A stretch of DNA of 21,808 nucleotides from a virus. Shown here piece by piece: positions 2,809 through 20,927 of this stretch (position 1 is the stretch's first letter; each line of letters starts with the position of its first letter). The position numbers and the translations under genes were made by a program. The notes under the pieces were generated by a model, which saw only the letters and a list, made by a program, of their open reading frames with translations, made no database searches and had not been told where the DNA came from. The stretch is taken from the IMG/VR virus record IMGVR_UViG_3300047175_000264, positions 1-21,808 of that record; one strand, 5' to 3'.

Positions 2809-3291
2809 TTAATCGATGGTAATAGGCACGCCGGTCTGGTCGGTGAGCGGCGCGCCGGTTTCGTTTGTCAGCTCATTGTTGCTGGCTGGCGGTGTCGCAA
2901 GCGCCGCGACGGGCAGCGAAATCGTCCGCGAAAAATTGCGCCCGTTGGTTGTGCCAATGACAACCGTGACGGCGTAGGCGGTTCCGGCGATGCCGCCGCT
3001 GAGCCACAGGATCGCAAGGTCGCCTTCGGTGCCGCTGGATTGCAGCGCCAGATCGCCGGTGTTGTCGGGATAAATCGCGACGGTAACGGTGGCGGCGGAA
3101 TCGGTTGGGTCGCCGGCCAATGCGTCTGTCAGGTCGACAACATAGTCGAGCACATCGCCAGGGTCCTTGACCGGCCAAACGAGAGGCGGAGGCTGCGTTT
3201 GCAGGACGCCGCGCGGAAAAGGGCCAAACCCTTCGATTGCGACAACGCGTGCCGTGGACGGCTGCCAGTTGGAACCGACCGTGCCCGACAT
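2809..3291 (-). CDS. Fiber-tail adaptor-like protein
   Basis: This is a 160-residue protein that begins MSGTVGSNWQPSTARVVAIE. The ATG at 3291 is preferred to an upstream in-frame start at 3384, because the upstream extension would overlap the fibre gene with Arg-rich out-of-frame-looking sequence, and AAAGG sits just upstream of 3291. The central stretch VWPVKDPGDVLDYVVDLTDAL resembles the DPG-x-LDY-x-x-D-W/L motif of phage fiber-tail adaptor proteins. It is followed by an immunoglobulin-like beta region and a short tail rich in T, N and D. The recall of that family is from memory and was not searched. Its position between two receptor-binding proteins fits a joining role at the baseplate. 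An alternative is a small structural fibre subunit. Confidence 0.72.
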   Translation of the reverse strand: MSGTVGSNWQPSTARVVAIEGFGPFPRGVLQTQPPPLVWPVKDPGDVLDYVVDLTDALAGDPTDSAATVTVAIYPDNTGDLALQSSGTEGDLAILWLSGGIAGTAYAVTVVIGTTNGRNFSRTISLPVAALATPPASNNELTNETGAPLTDQTGVPITID

Positions 3292-4706: not shown

Positions 4707-4735
4707 AATAAATGTTTTTTGGTTCTTTTTTTCAA
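4707..4735 (-). promoter_or_regulatory. Candidate sigma70-type promoter for the fibre block
   Basis: On the minus strand a -35-like TTGAAA (4735-4730) is followed after 17 nt by a -10-like TTTATT (4712-4707). This would give a leader of about 75 nt before the fibre ATG at 4625. The -35 matches 5/6 and the -10 matches 4/6 of the consensus. The whole region is AT-rich and made of hairpins, so chance similarity is a real risk. Confidence 0.3.
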
Positions 4736-4785
4736 AAAAGAACACTTCTTCTTTTTCTGAAGAAAAAGAAGCAAAAAGACTTTTG
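4714..4785. repeat. AT-rich hairpin element, copy 1 (modules B-A-C); putative terminator
   Basis: Three hairpins lie in tandem. B (4722-4743) has GTTC plus a T-run pairing with an A-run plus GAAC. A (4748-4771) has a perfect 10-bp stem, CTTCTTTTTC/GAAAAAGAAG, with a TGAA loop. C (4772-4785) pairs CAAAA with TTTTG. Read on the minus strand, C is followed by a T-rich run, which fits a Rho-independent or attenuating terminator between gene I and the fibre gene. The 30-bp core 4714-4743 recurs at 20889-20918 with one mismatch. The element forms most of the 180-bp noncoding interval 4626-4805 and is strikingly AT-rich against its GC-rich surroundings. Confidence 0.75.
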
Positions 4786-9400: not shown

Positions 9401-10549
9401 CTACCCCACGGTAACGCCTGGTAGTAACTGCGAACGTCTTGGATTGTAGCCATTAGGCCCATTATTCGCCCTCTCGCTCTCTCGGCGCAGGTAGCGAGAT
9501 ATCCAGCGGCCGACGAGAATGCCGTCCAGAAAAACGTCGCCCTGGGATTGACGCTGCGCCGAGTCACTTTCCGACCCTGCGTCAAGGCCGCGTTGGTCGG
9601 ATCGAAGCGCGGGCGGCGACGTCATAAGACTGCGCAGGTCGCCGGCTCCGGTTCGGAATGAACGCTCAGCGCCATGGGATGGCTGAGGCGGTGAACTTGA
9701 ACCCGCGGGCGCAACTGGCATCTGCATCGTGGAGTGTATTTGCGGATAAACCGGCGCGTTCGCCAAAAATGGCGCAGGATCTGCGGTTGCATCGTCAAAA
9801 TCTGCCGCCTTGTCTGACATCTGCAACAGACTTAAGTTCGCCAGCCGTGGCGACTGCAAATTCGACAGGGGAACGCCGACGGGCCCCAAATGACCGCGGC
9901 CGGCCGCTTCCAATTCTGCAGATTGTGCCTCTGTGCCGGGTCGTGAATCGAACGCACCAGGAGGGGCATACGCATCTGAATTATCGAACCTACTGTTCAT
10001 CGCGCCCAGAGTGGCGAGATGTGACATATCGCCATCGTCCTTTGGAGAAACTGACTGTGCATTCGGCAAACTCCTTCCGCCGTCGGACGCGAACGAATTC
10101 AACGAACGGTGGGAGCCAGGGGACAAGACCGGTCGCGCGGTAGGAGGTGCCCTGTCATTAATTTGGCTCACGGACGCGTTGTTGGCTAAATCAACCCTTG
10201 TCACCTTTGACAGCGCCATGATCGACTTTGCGTCAAGCAGCTCATCCGCTGCGTTCGCCTGATTATCTGATTGCCCAGTCTTTCTGCTTATCTCAGGCTT
10301 GCTAAAAATCCCATCGGCGATGCCGGTCTCGGCACCCCAACCAAGGCTTTGTTTCAGTTGAGGCGCTGACTGGGATAGACCTCCGACAGATGCTGTTTTG
10401 AACGCGGTATTTCGGATGGCGTCGATCCCAAGCCCGCTTGCCGAAACCGCCTTTTGAAGACATGCAATCTCCTGCTGTGCTTTTGCGACACCAGAAGACA
10501 GCTCATCAGACAGCGCAATCGAAACCCCAATTTCAAAAGCTTCCTTCAT
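9401..10549 (-). CDS. Tape-measure-position protein, short and low-complexity
   Basis: This is a 382-residue protein at the tape-measure position, between the chaperone region and the U-like gene. The first 40 residues (MKEAFEIGVSIALSDELSSG...) resemble the helical start of tape measures. The last 45 (GDVFLDGILVGRWISRYLRR, then ...PGVTVG) look like a conserved C-terminal end. The middle (about 90-320) is unusual: rich in P, S, D and N, apparently disordered, with no long coiled coil and no hydrophobic segments. Tape measures normally contain both and are often 600 residues or more. It may be a shortened tape measure, or a chimera that keeps both ends and has lost the body. ATG 10549 overlaps the preceding stop by 4 nt. 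The gene is well supported; the function is inferred from position. Confidence 0.65.
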   Translation of the reverse strand: MKEAFEIGVSIALSDELSSGVAKAQQEIACLQKAVSASGLGIDAIRNTAFKTASVGGLSQSAPQLKQSLGWGAETGIADGIFSKPEISRKTGQSDNQANAADELLDAKSIMALSKVTRVDLANNASVSQINDRAPPTARPVLSPGSHRSLNSFASDGGRSLPNAQSVSPKDDGDMSHLATLGAMNSRFDNSDAYAPPGAFDSRPGTEAQSAELEAAGRGHLGPVGVPLSNLQSPRLANLSLLQMSDKAADFDDATADPAPFLANAPVYPQIHSTMQMPVAPAGSSSPPQPSHGAERSFRTGAGDLRSLMTSPPALRSDQRGLDAGSESDSAQRQSQGDVFLDGILVGRWISRYLRRESERANNGPNGYNPRRSQLLPGVTVG

Positions 10550-10818
10550 GGTTTCTCGCTCAACTGTTGACGCATCGCCGAAATAACCGCCGGGATCGCT
10601 GCTCTTGCCGATCGACTAAGCGCGCCTGTAGGTGGCGAAGCGGAAGAACCGACTTCCCGCACGGCAAGAGCACGACTACGGCTGCCGATGACCGCGCGGT
10701 TTCCCTCGATACGAATGTCCAACTCGGCGGCTTGTCCATCGGCAAGGAGGTCCGCTCGCATGGCTTCCGCCAGTTTTTCGCTGGCAGCGAGCAACGCATC
10801 CATCATAGTTTCGTCCAT
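10546..10818 (-). CDS. Small phage protein of unknown function (between chaperone and tape measure)
   Basis: This is a 90-residue protein beginning MDETMMDALLAASEKLAEAM. The ATG at 10818 is preferred over an upstream TTG at 10833, since it overlaps the end of the chaperone -1 frame extension by 16 nt, the usual coupling pattern. It begins with an amphipathic helix. A basic, Arg-rich middle follows (RIEGNRAVIGSRSRALAVRE, residues about 36-55), then a Pro/Ser linker and a final helix. I do not recognise the family. Its place is fixed: after G/G-T and before the tape-measure candidate, with a 4-nt overlap into the latter. It may assist tape-measure assembly, but that is only a positional guess. 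Confidence 0.72.
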   Translation of the reverse strand: MDETMMDALLAASEKLAEAMRADLLADGQAAELDIRIEGNRAVIGSRSRALAVREVGSSASPPTGALSRSARAAIPAVISAMRQQLSEKP

Positions 10819-10973
10819 GTGCGCTTGTCCCAATCAAGCTCTAGCCCATCGAAGCGGGCCATGACGACGACCCACGCCAGACGATCATCAGGGGGAAGTG
10901 AGAACGCAACGTCGAACGGCACCCCGTTCCGGACCAGGTATAGGCTATCGACCAGATCGGGGTGCCGGCTCAG
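10803..10973 (-). CDS. Frameshift extension (T part) of the tail assembly chaperone G-T
   Basis: This stretch is read only after a -1 frameshift on the heptamer at 10979-10973; it has no start codon of its own. It codes for 56 residues after the shared Asn, beginning LSRHPDLVDSLYLVRNGVPF, and stops at TGA 10805-10803. The middle NGVPFDVAFSLPPDDRLAW and the end FDGLELDWDKRTW have the aromatic/acidic look of T extensions, with W/F-rich ends. The fusion would be 170 residues (114 + 56). In lambda and many other phages, the G and G-T forms, made in a fixed ratio, bind the tape measure and keep it soluble during tail assembly. The uninterrupted frame across 56 codons between the chaperone and the next gene is direct evidence. 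The actual shift efficiency is unknown. Confidence 0.85.
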   Translation of the reverse strand: MSRHPDLVDSLYLVRNGVPFDVAFSLPPDDRLAWVVVMARFDGLELDWDKRTWTKL

Positions 10974-10979
10974 TTTCCC
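10917..10979 (-). promoter_or_regulatory. Programmed -1 ribosomal frameshift signal (slippery heptamer plus stem-loop)
   Basis: On the minus strand the sequence is G-GGA-AAC-TGA: the heptamer GGGAAAC (10979-10973) in the proper X-XXY-YYZ phase, followed immediately by the zero-frame stop. A 5-nt spacer (TGAGC, 10972-10968) precedes a perfect 10-bp stem: CGGCACCCCG (10967-10958) pairs with CGGGGTGCCG (10926-10917). Inside it, after one A/A mismatch, UCUGG (10956-10952) pairs with CCGGA (10932-10928) with one G-U, closing a 19-nt loop. The heptamer, spacer length and stem meet the usual design of -1 frameshift sites. Confidence 0.9.
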
Positions 10980-11314
10980 ACTGTGGCTGCTCCGGATGGC
11001 GCCGCGTCATCCTGCGCGATCGCAGCCGCGATCGCTGTCAATCCAGAATCGCCTAGTCGTCCGACAAGAGCCTCGAGCTGACCTTCATTGATGGGTGGCG
11101 GCACTGGGACAGAGTCGATTGTGGTTACGGCGTAGGCGAGTGTGGCCATCCCTAGGTACAGCGCATTTTGCGTAAGACTTGGGCCAAGGGCCTTGAATAA
11201 TCGCAAGCGGTCGAGTGCCGTGAGGCGCCGGACTTCAATCCGGCGCCCGATCGTATCCAGAATTGAACGGGTGGACTGTGTATCCTTCAAGAAGCTTTCG
11301 CTTGGGCTGGTCAT
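10970..11314 (-). CDS. Tail assembly chaperone (G form)
   Basis: This is a 114-residue protein, the unshifted product of the chaperone locus. The first part is polar; the core is helical (RLTALDRLRLFKALGPSLTQ, residues about 30-49) with a hydrophobic patch (LYLGMATLAYAVTTIDSVPV). It ends in an Ala-rich helix and GAATVGN, then TGA. Chaperones of this position hold the tape measure before tube polymerisation. It starts right at the tail tube stop (TAA-ATG, 11315/11314) and is followed by the frameshift continuation. Size, location between tube and tape measure, and the frameshift cassette together make the call firm even though sequence identity in this family is low. Confidence 0.87.
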   Translation of the reverse strand: MTSPSESFLKDTQSTRSILDTIGRRIEVRRLTALDRLRLFKALGPSLTQNALYLGMATLAYAVTTIDSVPVPPPINEGQLEALVGRLGDSGLTAIAAAIAQDDAAPSGAATVGN

Positions 11315-11743
11315 TTAGAGCCGCTTCCGCTGGGTTGCAAAGAACTCCAGCTTTTGTTTTACGCTTGCATCTCCCTTCCATGCTCCGGCGTTCGCAAGCT
11401 TGAAAACCACACCGTTATATTGGTAGGTCGAGATCGAGCCATCGACTTCAGTCACATACTGATAAACCGTGCCCGCGGGCATTGCACCCTGGTTGAAAAA
11501 CCTCTGTTCTGCGAGAGCAATGAAGTCGTCAACCGCGCTTGTGCCCCGCTCGACCTCAAAGCTTCCCTCCCAGCCTTTTGGCAGCTCGGCCCCCATGGGC
11601 ACACCATCGAGCCGGTCCAAACGGACAGGTTGGGTAACCTGCCTGCTTTCGAAGCCGCTCACGTAGGTGAGGTCGACGCGACCTTGTGGCCCAATGACCA
11701 CGAGTTGACAGTCGCGACCGATCGAAAAGGCATTGATCGGCAT
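11315..11743 (-). CDS. Tail tube protein
   Basis: This is a 142-residue protein of the usual size for small myophage tube subunits. It lies directly after the sheath gene, the normal sheath-tube order. The sequence is a mixed beta protein: INAFSIGRDCQLVVIGPQGR at the start, KGWEGSFEVERGTSAVDDFI in the middle, and a beta-rich C-terminus (YQYNGVVFKLANAGAWKGD). It ends with a basic KQKLEFFATQRKRL. The W-x-G-x-F-E-V-E-R strand and the G-A-W-K-G-D turn are typical of tube proteins. ATG 11743 has a strong AGGAG 7 nt upstream, consistent with a highly expressed structural gene. The subunits stack as hexameric rings inside the sheath. Confidence 0.87.
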   Translation of the reverse strand: MPINAFSIGRDCQLVVIGPQGRVDLTYVSGFESRQVTQPVRLDRLDGVPMGAELPKGWEGSFEVERGTSAVDDFIALAEQRFFNQGAMPAGTVYQYVTEVDGSISTYQYNGVVFKLANAGAWKGDASVKQKLEFFATQRKRL

Positions 11744-11801: not shown

Positions 11802-13412
11802 CTAATTTACCAGCGTGCTGCTTGGCAGGGTCTGCTGCTGGATCACGACCGTTTGCCCGCCTTCCAGATTGACGATGAATTTTTCATTTATACCTTGGAA
11901 CTGAACCTGAACATTGCACTGAACAAAGCCCAGATCCGTCATGGAGGGGGGATTATTGCTGGCTTCGCAAATGACCGAGTAAGGAAGTGATCCATCGGCT
12001 GTACCCAGAATCCCCTGACTCAGGAGATTTTGCAGGAAGCTGAGTATGGTTGAACGGATATTCTGAAACAGCGTGGAATTGATCACTTGGCCGACGAATT
12101 GACCCATGCCCGCCGACAACGTGGCCGCGATGTAATTTGTCAGGCGGGTATAATTATCGCCATTTGTTGCCGGGTTCGACGAGGTGTTGTGTCCGCAGCG
12201 CACTCCCCAGTAAGCACCACCTGGTTGTGGGTTCGCAATCACATCGATCCCACTTTGGAACAACTGCGTCAGCTCGGCATCGCTATATGTGTTAACCTTG
12301 CTAGAGCCTGGTGTTCCTGAAAATTGCGTGCCAATCACGTTATAGAGCGGCTTGTTCAAGCTGGACTGTTCAGGGGAGAGATTGGCAAGCCGGCCGGCAA
12401 CGAACCCTTGCGGCGAGACCAGCCGTGTCAGAGCGTTCACCTGATCGTACCAGTAAACCCAATCACCAAGCATCAGTTTTGCCGAATAGGAATCCAGGCC
12501 CGCTGCATTCATGGTGGCAACCGCGCCCGAGATGTTTTGGCCTTGGCCTTGTGGACCAGTTAGAATCATATAGACGCCTTCCGATAGACCGAAGGCGGCC
12601 TGGGTGGTCCATTGGGTGGAATCGTCCGTGTCCGAAAGGACGGCAATGCCGCATCCCTGGGACCGCAAGGCATACATGCCGGTTCTGGGTGCGCCGTCTT
12701 GGCCGACAAGGGTAGCGGCGGTTACAGTGTCGGTTCCGGCTTCAGATACAGTTCCAGCGCCATCGGTACCCCCCGCCAACAGCTGAGGTCCAAACGCGGT
12801 GGGAGAGACGGCGTTGGGGATTAACGGCAGCGTGGCAACAACGAGTTGCGAAGCGCCGCGTAAAGCGCCGATGCCCTGATTGACCGCGTTCGCGAGAGTT
12901 TGCCAAAACAGTGTCGACGTGGCACCCGTAATGTTTGAAAAAACTTCGGGCACGAGACCTGGAAGCGCGACGACAAGTTGCCAGGCGCCCGTATTTGAAT
13001 TTTGCGACAGGGTAAGTGACAGTTGATTGCCAAGACTTCCCGTATTCACGGCAGTGAACATGATCGCAAATGTGTCGTTCGCAAGGCCGACAGCGTAGCT
13101 GGCCGCGGTATCGCTTCCGTCGGTAACCCGAACGCAGCGAAAATTCGTGGCGCCCTGTTGCACCGCGATCGCGACTGTCGTGCCCATATCATACTTGCGG
13201 GCCACCAGCGGGCCAAAGTTCTGCGCGTAATCGGCCATGGTGCCAACGGCGACCGGCTGGTTGATGGGGCCCCAGCTTGCTGTCCCAACCACGCCAAGCA
13301 GGTTCGTGGGAACGCCATTCAGAACCAAATTCTGCGGTGGGACAATTTGAACGTACAGGTTCGGCACAACGAGCGCCGTCGTGTTCAACGTCCCACTCTG
13401 AAAGATTGGCAT
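11802..13412 (-). CDS. Contractile tail sheath protein
   Basis: This is a 536-residue sheath protein and the clearest evidence for a contractile tail. Recognisable parts are the N-terminal strand VPNLYVQIVPPQNLVLNGVP, then TNLLGVVGTASWGPINQPVA (about 37-56), the motif of the handshake domain opening. The variable domain contains GNQLSLTLSQNSNTGAWQLV. The C-terminal conserved region includes the segment NPQPGGAYWGVRCGHNTSSN, where the Tyr/Trp-Gly-x-R element marks sheath proteins, followed by the helical TRLTNYIAATLSAGMGQFVG and a closing beta strand. ATG 13412 has a strong GAGGAG 6 nt upstream. The gene precedes the tail tube with a 58-nt gap. The length is within the 350-660 residue range of the family. 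Confidence 0.95.
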   Translation of the reverse strand: MPIFQSGTLNTTALVVPNLYVQIVPPQNLVLNGVPTNLLGVVGTASWGPINQPVAVGTMADYAQNFGPLVARKYDMGTTVAIAVQQGATNFRCVRVTDGSDTAASYAVGLANDTFAIMFTAVNTGSLGNQLSLTLSQNSNTGAWQLVVALPGLVPEVFSNITGATSTLFWQTLANAVNQGIGALRGASQLVVATLPLIPNAVSPTAFGPQLLAGGTDGAGTVSEAGTDTVTAATLVGQDGAPRTGMYALRSQGCGIAVLSDTDDSTQWTTQAAFGLSEGVYMILTGPQGQGQNISGAVATMNAAGLDSYSAKLMLGDWVYWYDQVNALTRLVSPQGFVAGRLANLSPEQSSLNKPLYNVIGTQFSGTPGSSKVNTYSDAELTQLFQSGIDVIANPQPGGAYWGVRCGHNTSSNPATNGDNYTRLTNYIAATLSAGMGQFVGQVINSTLFQNIRSTILSFLQNLLSQGILGTADGSLPYSVICEASNNPPSMTDLGFVQCNVQVQFQGINEKFIVNLEGGQTVVIQQQTLPSSTLVN

Positions 13413-20882: not shown

Positions 20883-20927
20883 CCAAAAGTTTTTTGGTTC
20901 TTTTTTTCAAGAAAGAACGGCTTTTTT
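20883..20927 (+). terminator. AT-rich hairpin element, copy 2, module B; terminator-like
   Basis: On the plus strand CCAAAA pairs with TTTTGG (20883-20897) and is followed by a T-rich run. GTTC-T-run then pairs with the A-rich GAAC arm (20897-20918) and is followed by GGC and six T (20922-20927). Both halves suit Rho-independent termination of the lipoprotein transcript. The core 20889-20918 matches 4714-4743 at 29 of 30 positions. Confidence 0.6.

Follow-up and report, generated by a model that had tools for sequence, protein, structure and literature searches.

Programmed frameshifting in tail assembly chaperone genes is widespread among phages. In the lambda model, G and a minority of the fusion G-T sit on the tape measure and T recruits tube subunits (reviewed in PMC5009743). 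The locus described here lies in a 21.8-kb IMG/VR virus record of a contractile-tailed phage, hereafter the window (the whole stretch of DNA analyzed), whose genes are read on the minus strand. It resembles lambda gpG/gpGT in having a chaperone gene before a (here probable) tape measure gene, a -1 heptamer near the 3' end of the chaperone gene, an extension in the -1 frame and a short product expected in excess (for lambda, PMC5009743). It differs from lambda in three respects: (i) the lambda site is G_GGA_AAG, with AAG in the A site instead of AAC; (ii) the 60 nt downstream of the lambda site fold no better than shuffled sequences (z +0.9), whereas the hairpin in the window is strong; and (iii) the extension in the window spans 56 codons and falls outside any named T family.

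Other described systems share one or another part of the arrangement. Burkholderia phage KL1 gp18/gp19 carries GGGAAAC immediately 5' of TGA with a predicted stem-loop downstream (PMC3483164). KL1 differs in being a siphovirus, in its longer fusion (264 aa), in a prediction that, in the passages cited, rests on folding of a single genome, and in the folding of its downstream 60 nt (z +0.7). The Caulobacter phages phiCbK and Colossus also have alphaproteobacterial hosts and use AAAAAAC and GGGAAAC as chaperone shift sites (PMC3556154), but they are large prolate siphophages, and phiCbK has no strong downstream structure (z +0.8). P2, like the phage in the window, has a contractile tail and makes gpE and gpE+E' by a -1 frameshift between its tube and tail length genes; its site, however, is TTTTTTG and its downstream folding is unremarkable (z -0.05). 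Outside phages, the gag-pro junctions of FIV, SRV-1 and MMTV offer an analogy only: there, too, GGGAAAC or AAAAAAC is followed, about 7 nt on, by an RNA structure (PMC3835772), but these structures are pseudoknots, whereas the family described below has no conserved partner 3' of the stem. The E. coli dnaX cassette joins a Shine-Dalgarno (SD)-like element, a heptamer and a hairpin (PMC3711429), but in an unrelated gene and on A_AAA_AAG, and the SD-like element is not universal in our family.

Thus frameshifting in chaperone genes, a GGGAAAC that adjoins TGA and predicted downstream stem-loops are all known already (PMC3556154, PMC3483164), and the support that we found in the literature for RNA structure at chaperone shift sites consists of single-genome folding. 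The new element is a chaperone family, widespread but unannotated, in which comparison of the sequences demonstrates selection on the frameshift hairpin.

An earlier note on this DNA, made from the letters alone, described a complete -1 frameshift cassette at the end of a chaperone gene, and its layout proved accurate: GGGAAAC stands in the correct phase with TGA next to it, a 5-nt spacer and a perfect 10-bp stem follow, and the -1 frame stays open for 56 codons after AAC (stop at 10805-10803), ending 16 nt inside the next ORF. The inner 5-bp stem of that description is likewise present in the window, although its conservation turned out to be moderate and confined to the outer three pairs (see below). 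All elements are listed in the table.

Features of the frameshift cassette and of the neighboring genes in the window.
Feature	Position	Strand	Basis or remark
Tail sheath	11802..13412	-	phrog_23 tail sheath, E 1e-48
Probable tail tube gene, directly upstream of chaperone	11315..11743	-	phrog_12993, E 8e-43, family of unknown function
Zero-frame G-type tail assembly chaperone (very likely), 114 aa	10970..11314	-	ORF; phrog_20383, E 4e-19, function unknown
SD-like GGAG, 10 nt 5' of heptamer, possible upstream stimulator	10990..10993	-	sequence
Slippery heptamer G_GGA_AAC (GGGAAAC)	10973..10979	-	in phase, end of 114-aa ORF
Zero-frame stop TGA, directly 3' of heptamer	10970..10972	-	sequence
5' arm of 10-bp putative stimulatory stem	10958..10967	-	perfect pairing; 9-bp core conserved
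Inner stem, 5' arm UCUGG	10952..10956	-	window fold; first three pairs moderately conserved
Inner stem, 3' arm CCGGA	10928..10932	-	window fold; moderately conserved
3' arm of 10-bp putative stimulatory stem	10917..10926	-	perfect pairing; 9-bp core conserved
-1 frame extension (T-type domain), 56 codons + stop	10803..10973	-	predicted fusion 170 aa
Next ORF, 90 aa, ATG at 10818	10546..10818	-	overlaps T end by 16 nt
Probable short tape measure protein, 382 aa	9401..10549	-	position only; no family match

The 60 nt downstream of the heptamer fold at -33.9 kcal/mol, well below both dinucleotide shuffles (z -4.7) and synonymous shuffles (z -5.2). The same calculation applied to lambda, HK97, P2, KL1 and phiCbK found no unusual folding (z -0.8 to +0.9; the HK97 site, GGGAAAA, was picked by motif near the annotated frame junction). 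The claim that a strong stem is unusual for a phage chaperone needs qualifying: stem-loops had been predicted before, as for KL1, and what stands out against the five phages is the strength and the conservation of this one.

Is the stem maintained by selection? We collected relatives from virus contigs and bacterial genomes and clustered them at 85% identity. Each was then set against synonymous shuffles that drew on the codon usage of its own contig and left the T protein unchanged. Eight or more of the 9 core pairs form in 130 of 133 clustered relatives against 12.3 expected, and all 9 in 116 against 1.35 expected, counts that are not independent events because the 133 clusters are still mutually related. 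The folding z of the hairpin averages -4.3, with p <= 0.05 in 99% of the clusters. In an 82-row alignment, 98.5% of cells are paired; shifting the partner by 1-3 columns lowers this share to 34-50%. Synonymous constraint covers both arms and the flanks of the loop (T codons 0-6 and 12-17) and returns to background from codon 18, after the 3' arm. Among the constrained codons Gly is encoded by GGG in 129 of 133 relatives, though GGG makes up 21% of Gly codons, and Val by GTG in the same proportion (129/133). Where the protein does change, the pair is kept: two Methylobacterium prophages (L171 and L174) replace His by Asp in one arm and carry a synonymous GTG to GTC change in the other, while a third relative (L028) couples Pro to Ala with a synonymous GGG to GGC, each a switch from C-G to G-C. 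Thus, across these sequences, the stem is kept by selection. The earlier note had proposed looking for covariation of slippery site and stem arms in relatives; both are kept, with compensatory changes in these three.

Several lineages that lack the HP...GVP arms (L172, L081, L014, L015 and L169) have unrelated hairpins at the same position. Four of these fold better than their synonymous shuffles (p 0.00-0.04), and that of L015 does not (p 0.17). Elsewhere in the cassette conservation is looser. The three outer pairs of the inner stem form in about 68-94% of alignment rows and the loop folds with an average z of -1.5, indicating partial conservation. SD-like 4-mers at a spacing of 5-14 nt occur in 67 of 137 relatives, mainly of one class, against 31.8 expected from synonymous shuffles, with the strongest excess at spacing 9 (18 versus 2.4 expected). 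These counts suggest that SD-like element, heptamer and hairpin form a three-part cassette in some clades, with no universal rule. A downstream pseudoknot was also considered: 3' of the stem no conserved partner was found, and since constraint is gone from T codon 18 on, an H-type pseudoknot of the retroviral kind is ruled out as a conserved feature.

A stem under selection could in principle serve some other purpose, such as RNA stability, termination, operator function or protein binding, and adjoin the slippery site by chance. Such a role would suit the arms in one respect, as they are nearly invariant in sequence, beyond what pairing asks for. However, the protein (HP and GVP) together with pairing forces this near invariance, and no sequence-specific binder is needed to account for it. 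Moreover, amino-acid changes are matched by silent changes in the partner arm that keep the pair, and divergent lineages carry unrelated hairpins in the same place. The hairpin is not followed by a T-run, and its region has no match in Rfam. Taken together, these observations make a different role for the hairpin improbable, and a stimulator of frameshifting is the reading that we retain.

The slippery site itself is also well kept. The relatives found in named genomes belong mostly to Acetobacteraceae and other Rhodospirillales, with further hosts in Methylobacterium, Rhizobium, Ralstonia, Aquabacterium and the planctomycetes Limnoglobus and Zavarzinella. T lies in the -1 frame relative to G at 243 of 245 loci having both domains. 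An in-phase X_XXA_AAZ heptamer is present in 189 of 195 unique relatives, as GGGAAAC (159), AAAAAAC (25), CCCAAAC (2) or, once each, GGGAAAT, AAAAAAA and AAAAAAG. Homologous loci without heptamer or with a stopped -1 frame had been named beforehand as the evidence that would count against frameshifting; heptamer and open frame are found together in these 189. The first three bases are exchanged as a triplet while AAA is kept, exactly the pattern that tandem slippage demands. The zero-frame stop directly follows the heptamer in most relatives, but in 6 it is set back by 3 nt and in 32 by 18 nt, so the stop need not adjoin the heptamer.

Five of the 195 unique relatives have both domains intact and no recognized heptamer (L017, L149, L153, L168 and L170). 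In L170 T stands in a +1 relation to G, and in L017 it lies outside the -1 relation, behind an ATG of its own, which shows that frameshifting is not the sole solution in the wider family. Either separate genes replaced frameshifting in these five or they use other types of shift. The sixth relative outside the 189 (L203) has a stop inside G, near 1944; its GGGAAAC and T frame, well downstream of that stop, are intact, and decay of the element or an error in sequencing is the probable cause. The chromosome of Limnoglobus roseus (NZ_CP042425.1) has two chaperone copies (L151 and L157) about 4.6 Mb apart, both with AAAAAAC and related hairpins; each may be a prophage or a domesticated tail element.

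The -1 frame has the properties of a genuine coding sequence. Over codons 1-52 none of the 133 clustered relatives has a stop in this frame, whereas the other two frames are stopped in 104 and 107. T codons 18-51, beyond the hairpin, have a median dN/dS of 0.33, a value to be read with the near saturation of synonymous sites in many pairs (median dS 1.15). Across 46 diverse members the extension keeps the motif HPDL..CLYLV.NGVPFDVAFSL. By these sequence measures the -1 product is a conserved protein under selection. Its AlphaFold model is confident (pLDDT 90.5), and a search of that model against a viral fold library returned no match at E <= 0.001. Pfam, NCBIfam and PHROGs searches assigned the domain to no named family. 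A comparison of the 56-codon extension with phage T-domain profiles had been suggested in the earlier note; the extension matches neither the lambda T domain nor any named family.

The RNA element also finds the family without the protein. We scanned virus contigs for AAAC, the spacer frame and the two stem arms, leaving the first three heptamer bases free and using no protein information. The scan returned at least 120 loci, and among the matches listed 97 have GGGAAAC and 23 AAAAAAC. The T frame is open at all loci among the matches listed, two being interrupted by contig ends, and the T proteins among them include some just 32% identical to that of the window. These contigs overlap widely with the relatives collected earlier, which makes the scan a check of specificity rather than a fresh sampling.

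An inducible counterpart is the Komagataeibacter phage phiKX1. A tblastn search of a phage collection with the whole fusion gave no match at E 0.1; phiKX1 emerged when T alone served as query at E 10. The match is convincing only because of its shift site and stem, AAAAAAC TGAGCA GGCACCCCG ... CGGGGTGCC, which forms the same 9-bp stem as in the window. The T domain (3019-3198 of our locus L257; LC644975.1 31738-31917) is annotated as a separate hypothetical CDS that starts inside the hairpin, and this CDS is probably a truncated -1 extension of the preceding gene. Annotation thus misses or shortens the T domain, which has no Pfam or NCBIfam match and is a separate hypothetical gene in phiKX1.

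Could T be a separate gene, translated by re-initiation after the G stop, with the heptamer incidental? The phiKX1 annotation gives T its own CDS, and the distant relative L017 shows that a T with its own ATG exists, albeit in another arrangement. In the window, however, the first ATG, GTG or TTG of the T frame is the GTG inside the conserved GVPFD motif, so that a gene caller, too, lacks a starting point. Between the heptamer and T codon 12, 74 of the 133 clustered relatives have no start codon, and just 4 of the 133 have an ATG in the stretch that begins 60 nt 5' of the heptamer and ends at codon 12. Translational coupling would also leave the triplet-wise change of XXX unexplained, and we consider it very improbable. 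Stuttering of RNA polymerase at the run is less credible still: A6 runs such as that of AAAAAAC (25 relatives) could stutter, but most members have GGGAAAC, with runs only three long, CCCAAAC is also found, and the hairpin sits at ribosome spacing, 5-6 nt away.

What does the G protein do? Searches of Pfam, NCBIfam and PHROGs found no named family for G, only phrog_20383, itself unnamed, and a profile search of solved-structure sequences gave nothing significant. The AlphaFold model of G (pLDDT 86) matches HK97 gp13 (2OB9, Z 5.0) and YqbN (3KLU, Z 4.7) best in the PDB, weak matches that could not stand alone, as a Z under 8 can reflect a common arrangement. Against viral models, several annotated tail assembly chaperones were among the matches. 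The weak fold match, the gene order and the frameshift together make G very likely a tail assembly chaperone. The earlier reading of the locus as a G-T chaperone frameshift thereby gains support, from the conserved heptamer and open frame, from the weak matches to the HK97 chaperone and YqbN, and from the position of the gene after the sheath and the gene that follows it.

We therefore think it almost certain that a programmed -1 ribosomal frameshift yields two predicted tail assembly chaperones from one gene, as in lambda G/G-T. The parts, their phase, their conservation and the selection on the -1 protein and the hairpin are visible in the sequences; slippage, its rate and the role in tail assembly are what we infer from them. 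Most ribosomes would terminate at the TGA of GGA AAC TGA, yielding the 114-aa G protein. The hairpin, which begins 5-6 nt past the shift site, would make a minority pause; with GGA in the P site and AAC in the A site, both tRNAs would move back by one base and pair with GGG and AAA instead. The slipped ribosome would then translate 56 more codons to give the 170-aa G-T fusion. If the lambda model applies, the tape measure would be coated by many G and few G-T, and the T part would recruit tube subunits around it.

Why would these phages use AAC? In E. coli, A_AAA_AAC is much less slippery than A_AAA_AAG (PMC5009743), so a useful shift rate would depend on the hairpin or on the tRNAs of the host. 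On mammalian ribosomes, by contrast, AAC sites rank among the most efficient, and tight pairing to AAG is expected in bacteria that possess two lysine tRNAs (PMC5009743). All five host genomes checked encode both tRNA-Lys(CUU) and tRNA-Lys(UUU). It is conceivable, and we put it forward tentatively, that the conserved RNA element fits hosts in which AAG works poorly: a weak Asn site of the retroviral type, X_XXA_AAC, would be offset by a strong hairpin, in a layout kept, or rebuilt from unrelated sequence, across prophages of Alphaproteobacteria, Betaproteobacteria and Planctomycetes. The presence of tRNA-Lys(CUU) in the five hosts fits such hairpin-aided sites, but the Aquabacterium prophage with AAAAAAG resides in a two-lysine-tRNA host, a counter-example that limits the idea to a hypothesis. 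A strict rule confining AAG sites to hosts that lack tRNA-Lys(CUU) was rejected, since CUU is present in all five, the AAAAAAG case included.

Heptamer and hairpin can be traced through hundreds of natural variants of this family, with compensatory changes and independent hairpins among them. In phiKX1, whose host is an acetic acid bacterium, the relation between hairpin strength, G:G-T ratio and tail length can be tested: its particles were obtained by mitomycin C induction, and PHAST rated the phage incomplete, so that it may assemble but not infect (PMC8566455).

On the minus strand of the window the gene order is terminase, portal, major head protein, sheath, probable tube, chaperone, a small ORF, probable tape measure and baseplate genes. 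Near the chaperone the sheath is certain from its phrog_23 match, and the flanking tube and tape measure genes are assigned from order. The tube gene (11315..11743) is probable from its place after the sheath, and the tape measure gene (9401..10549) from its place in the order; neither has a named family. The 90-aa ORF between T and the probable tape measure gene has no family match better than E 0.07. If the 382-aa ORF is the tape measure, very short tails would follow. Across 60 relatives, the longest ORF downstream of T has a median length of about 378 aa.

A minor feature concerns the base composition of the window. A short imperfect palindrome, TTTTTTGGTTCTTTTTTTCAA(A/G)AAAGAAC, which is absent from the output of the inverted-repeat search for the window, occurs in both of two AT-rich stretches (4718-4745 and 20889-20920), while the rest of the genome in the window is GC-rich.
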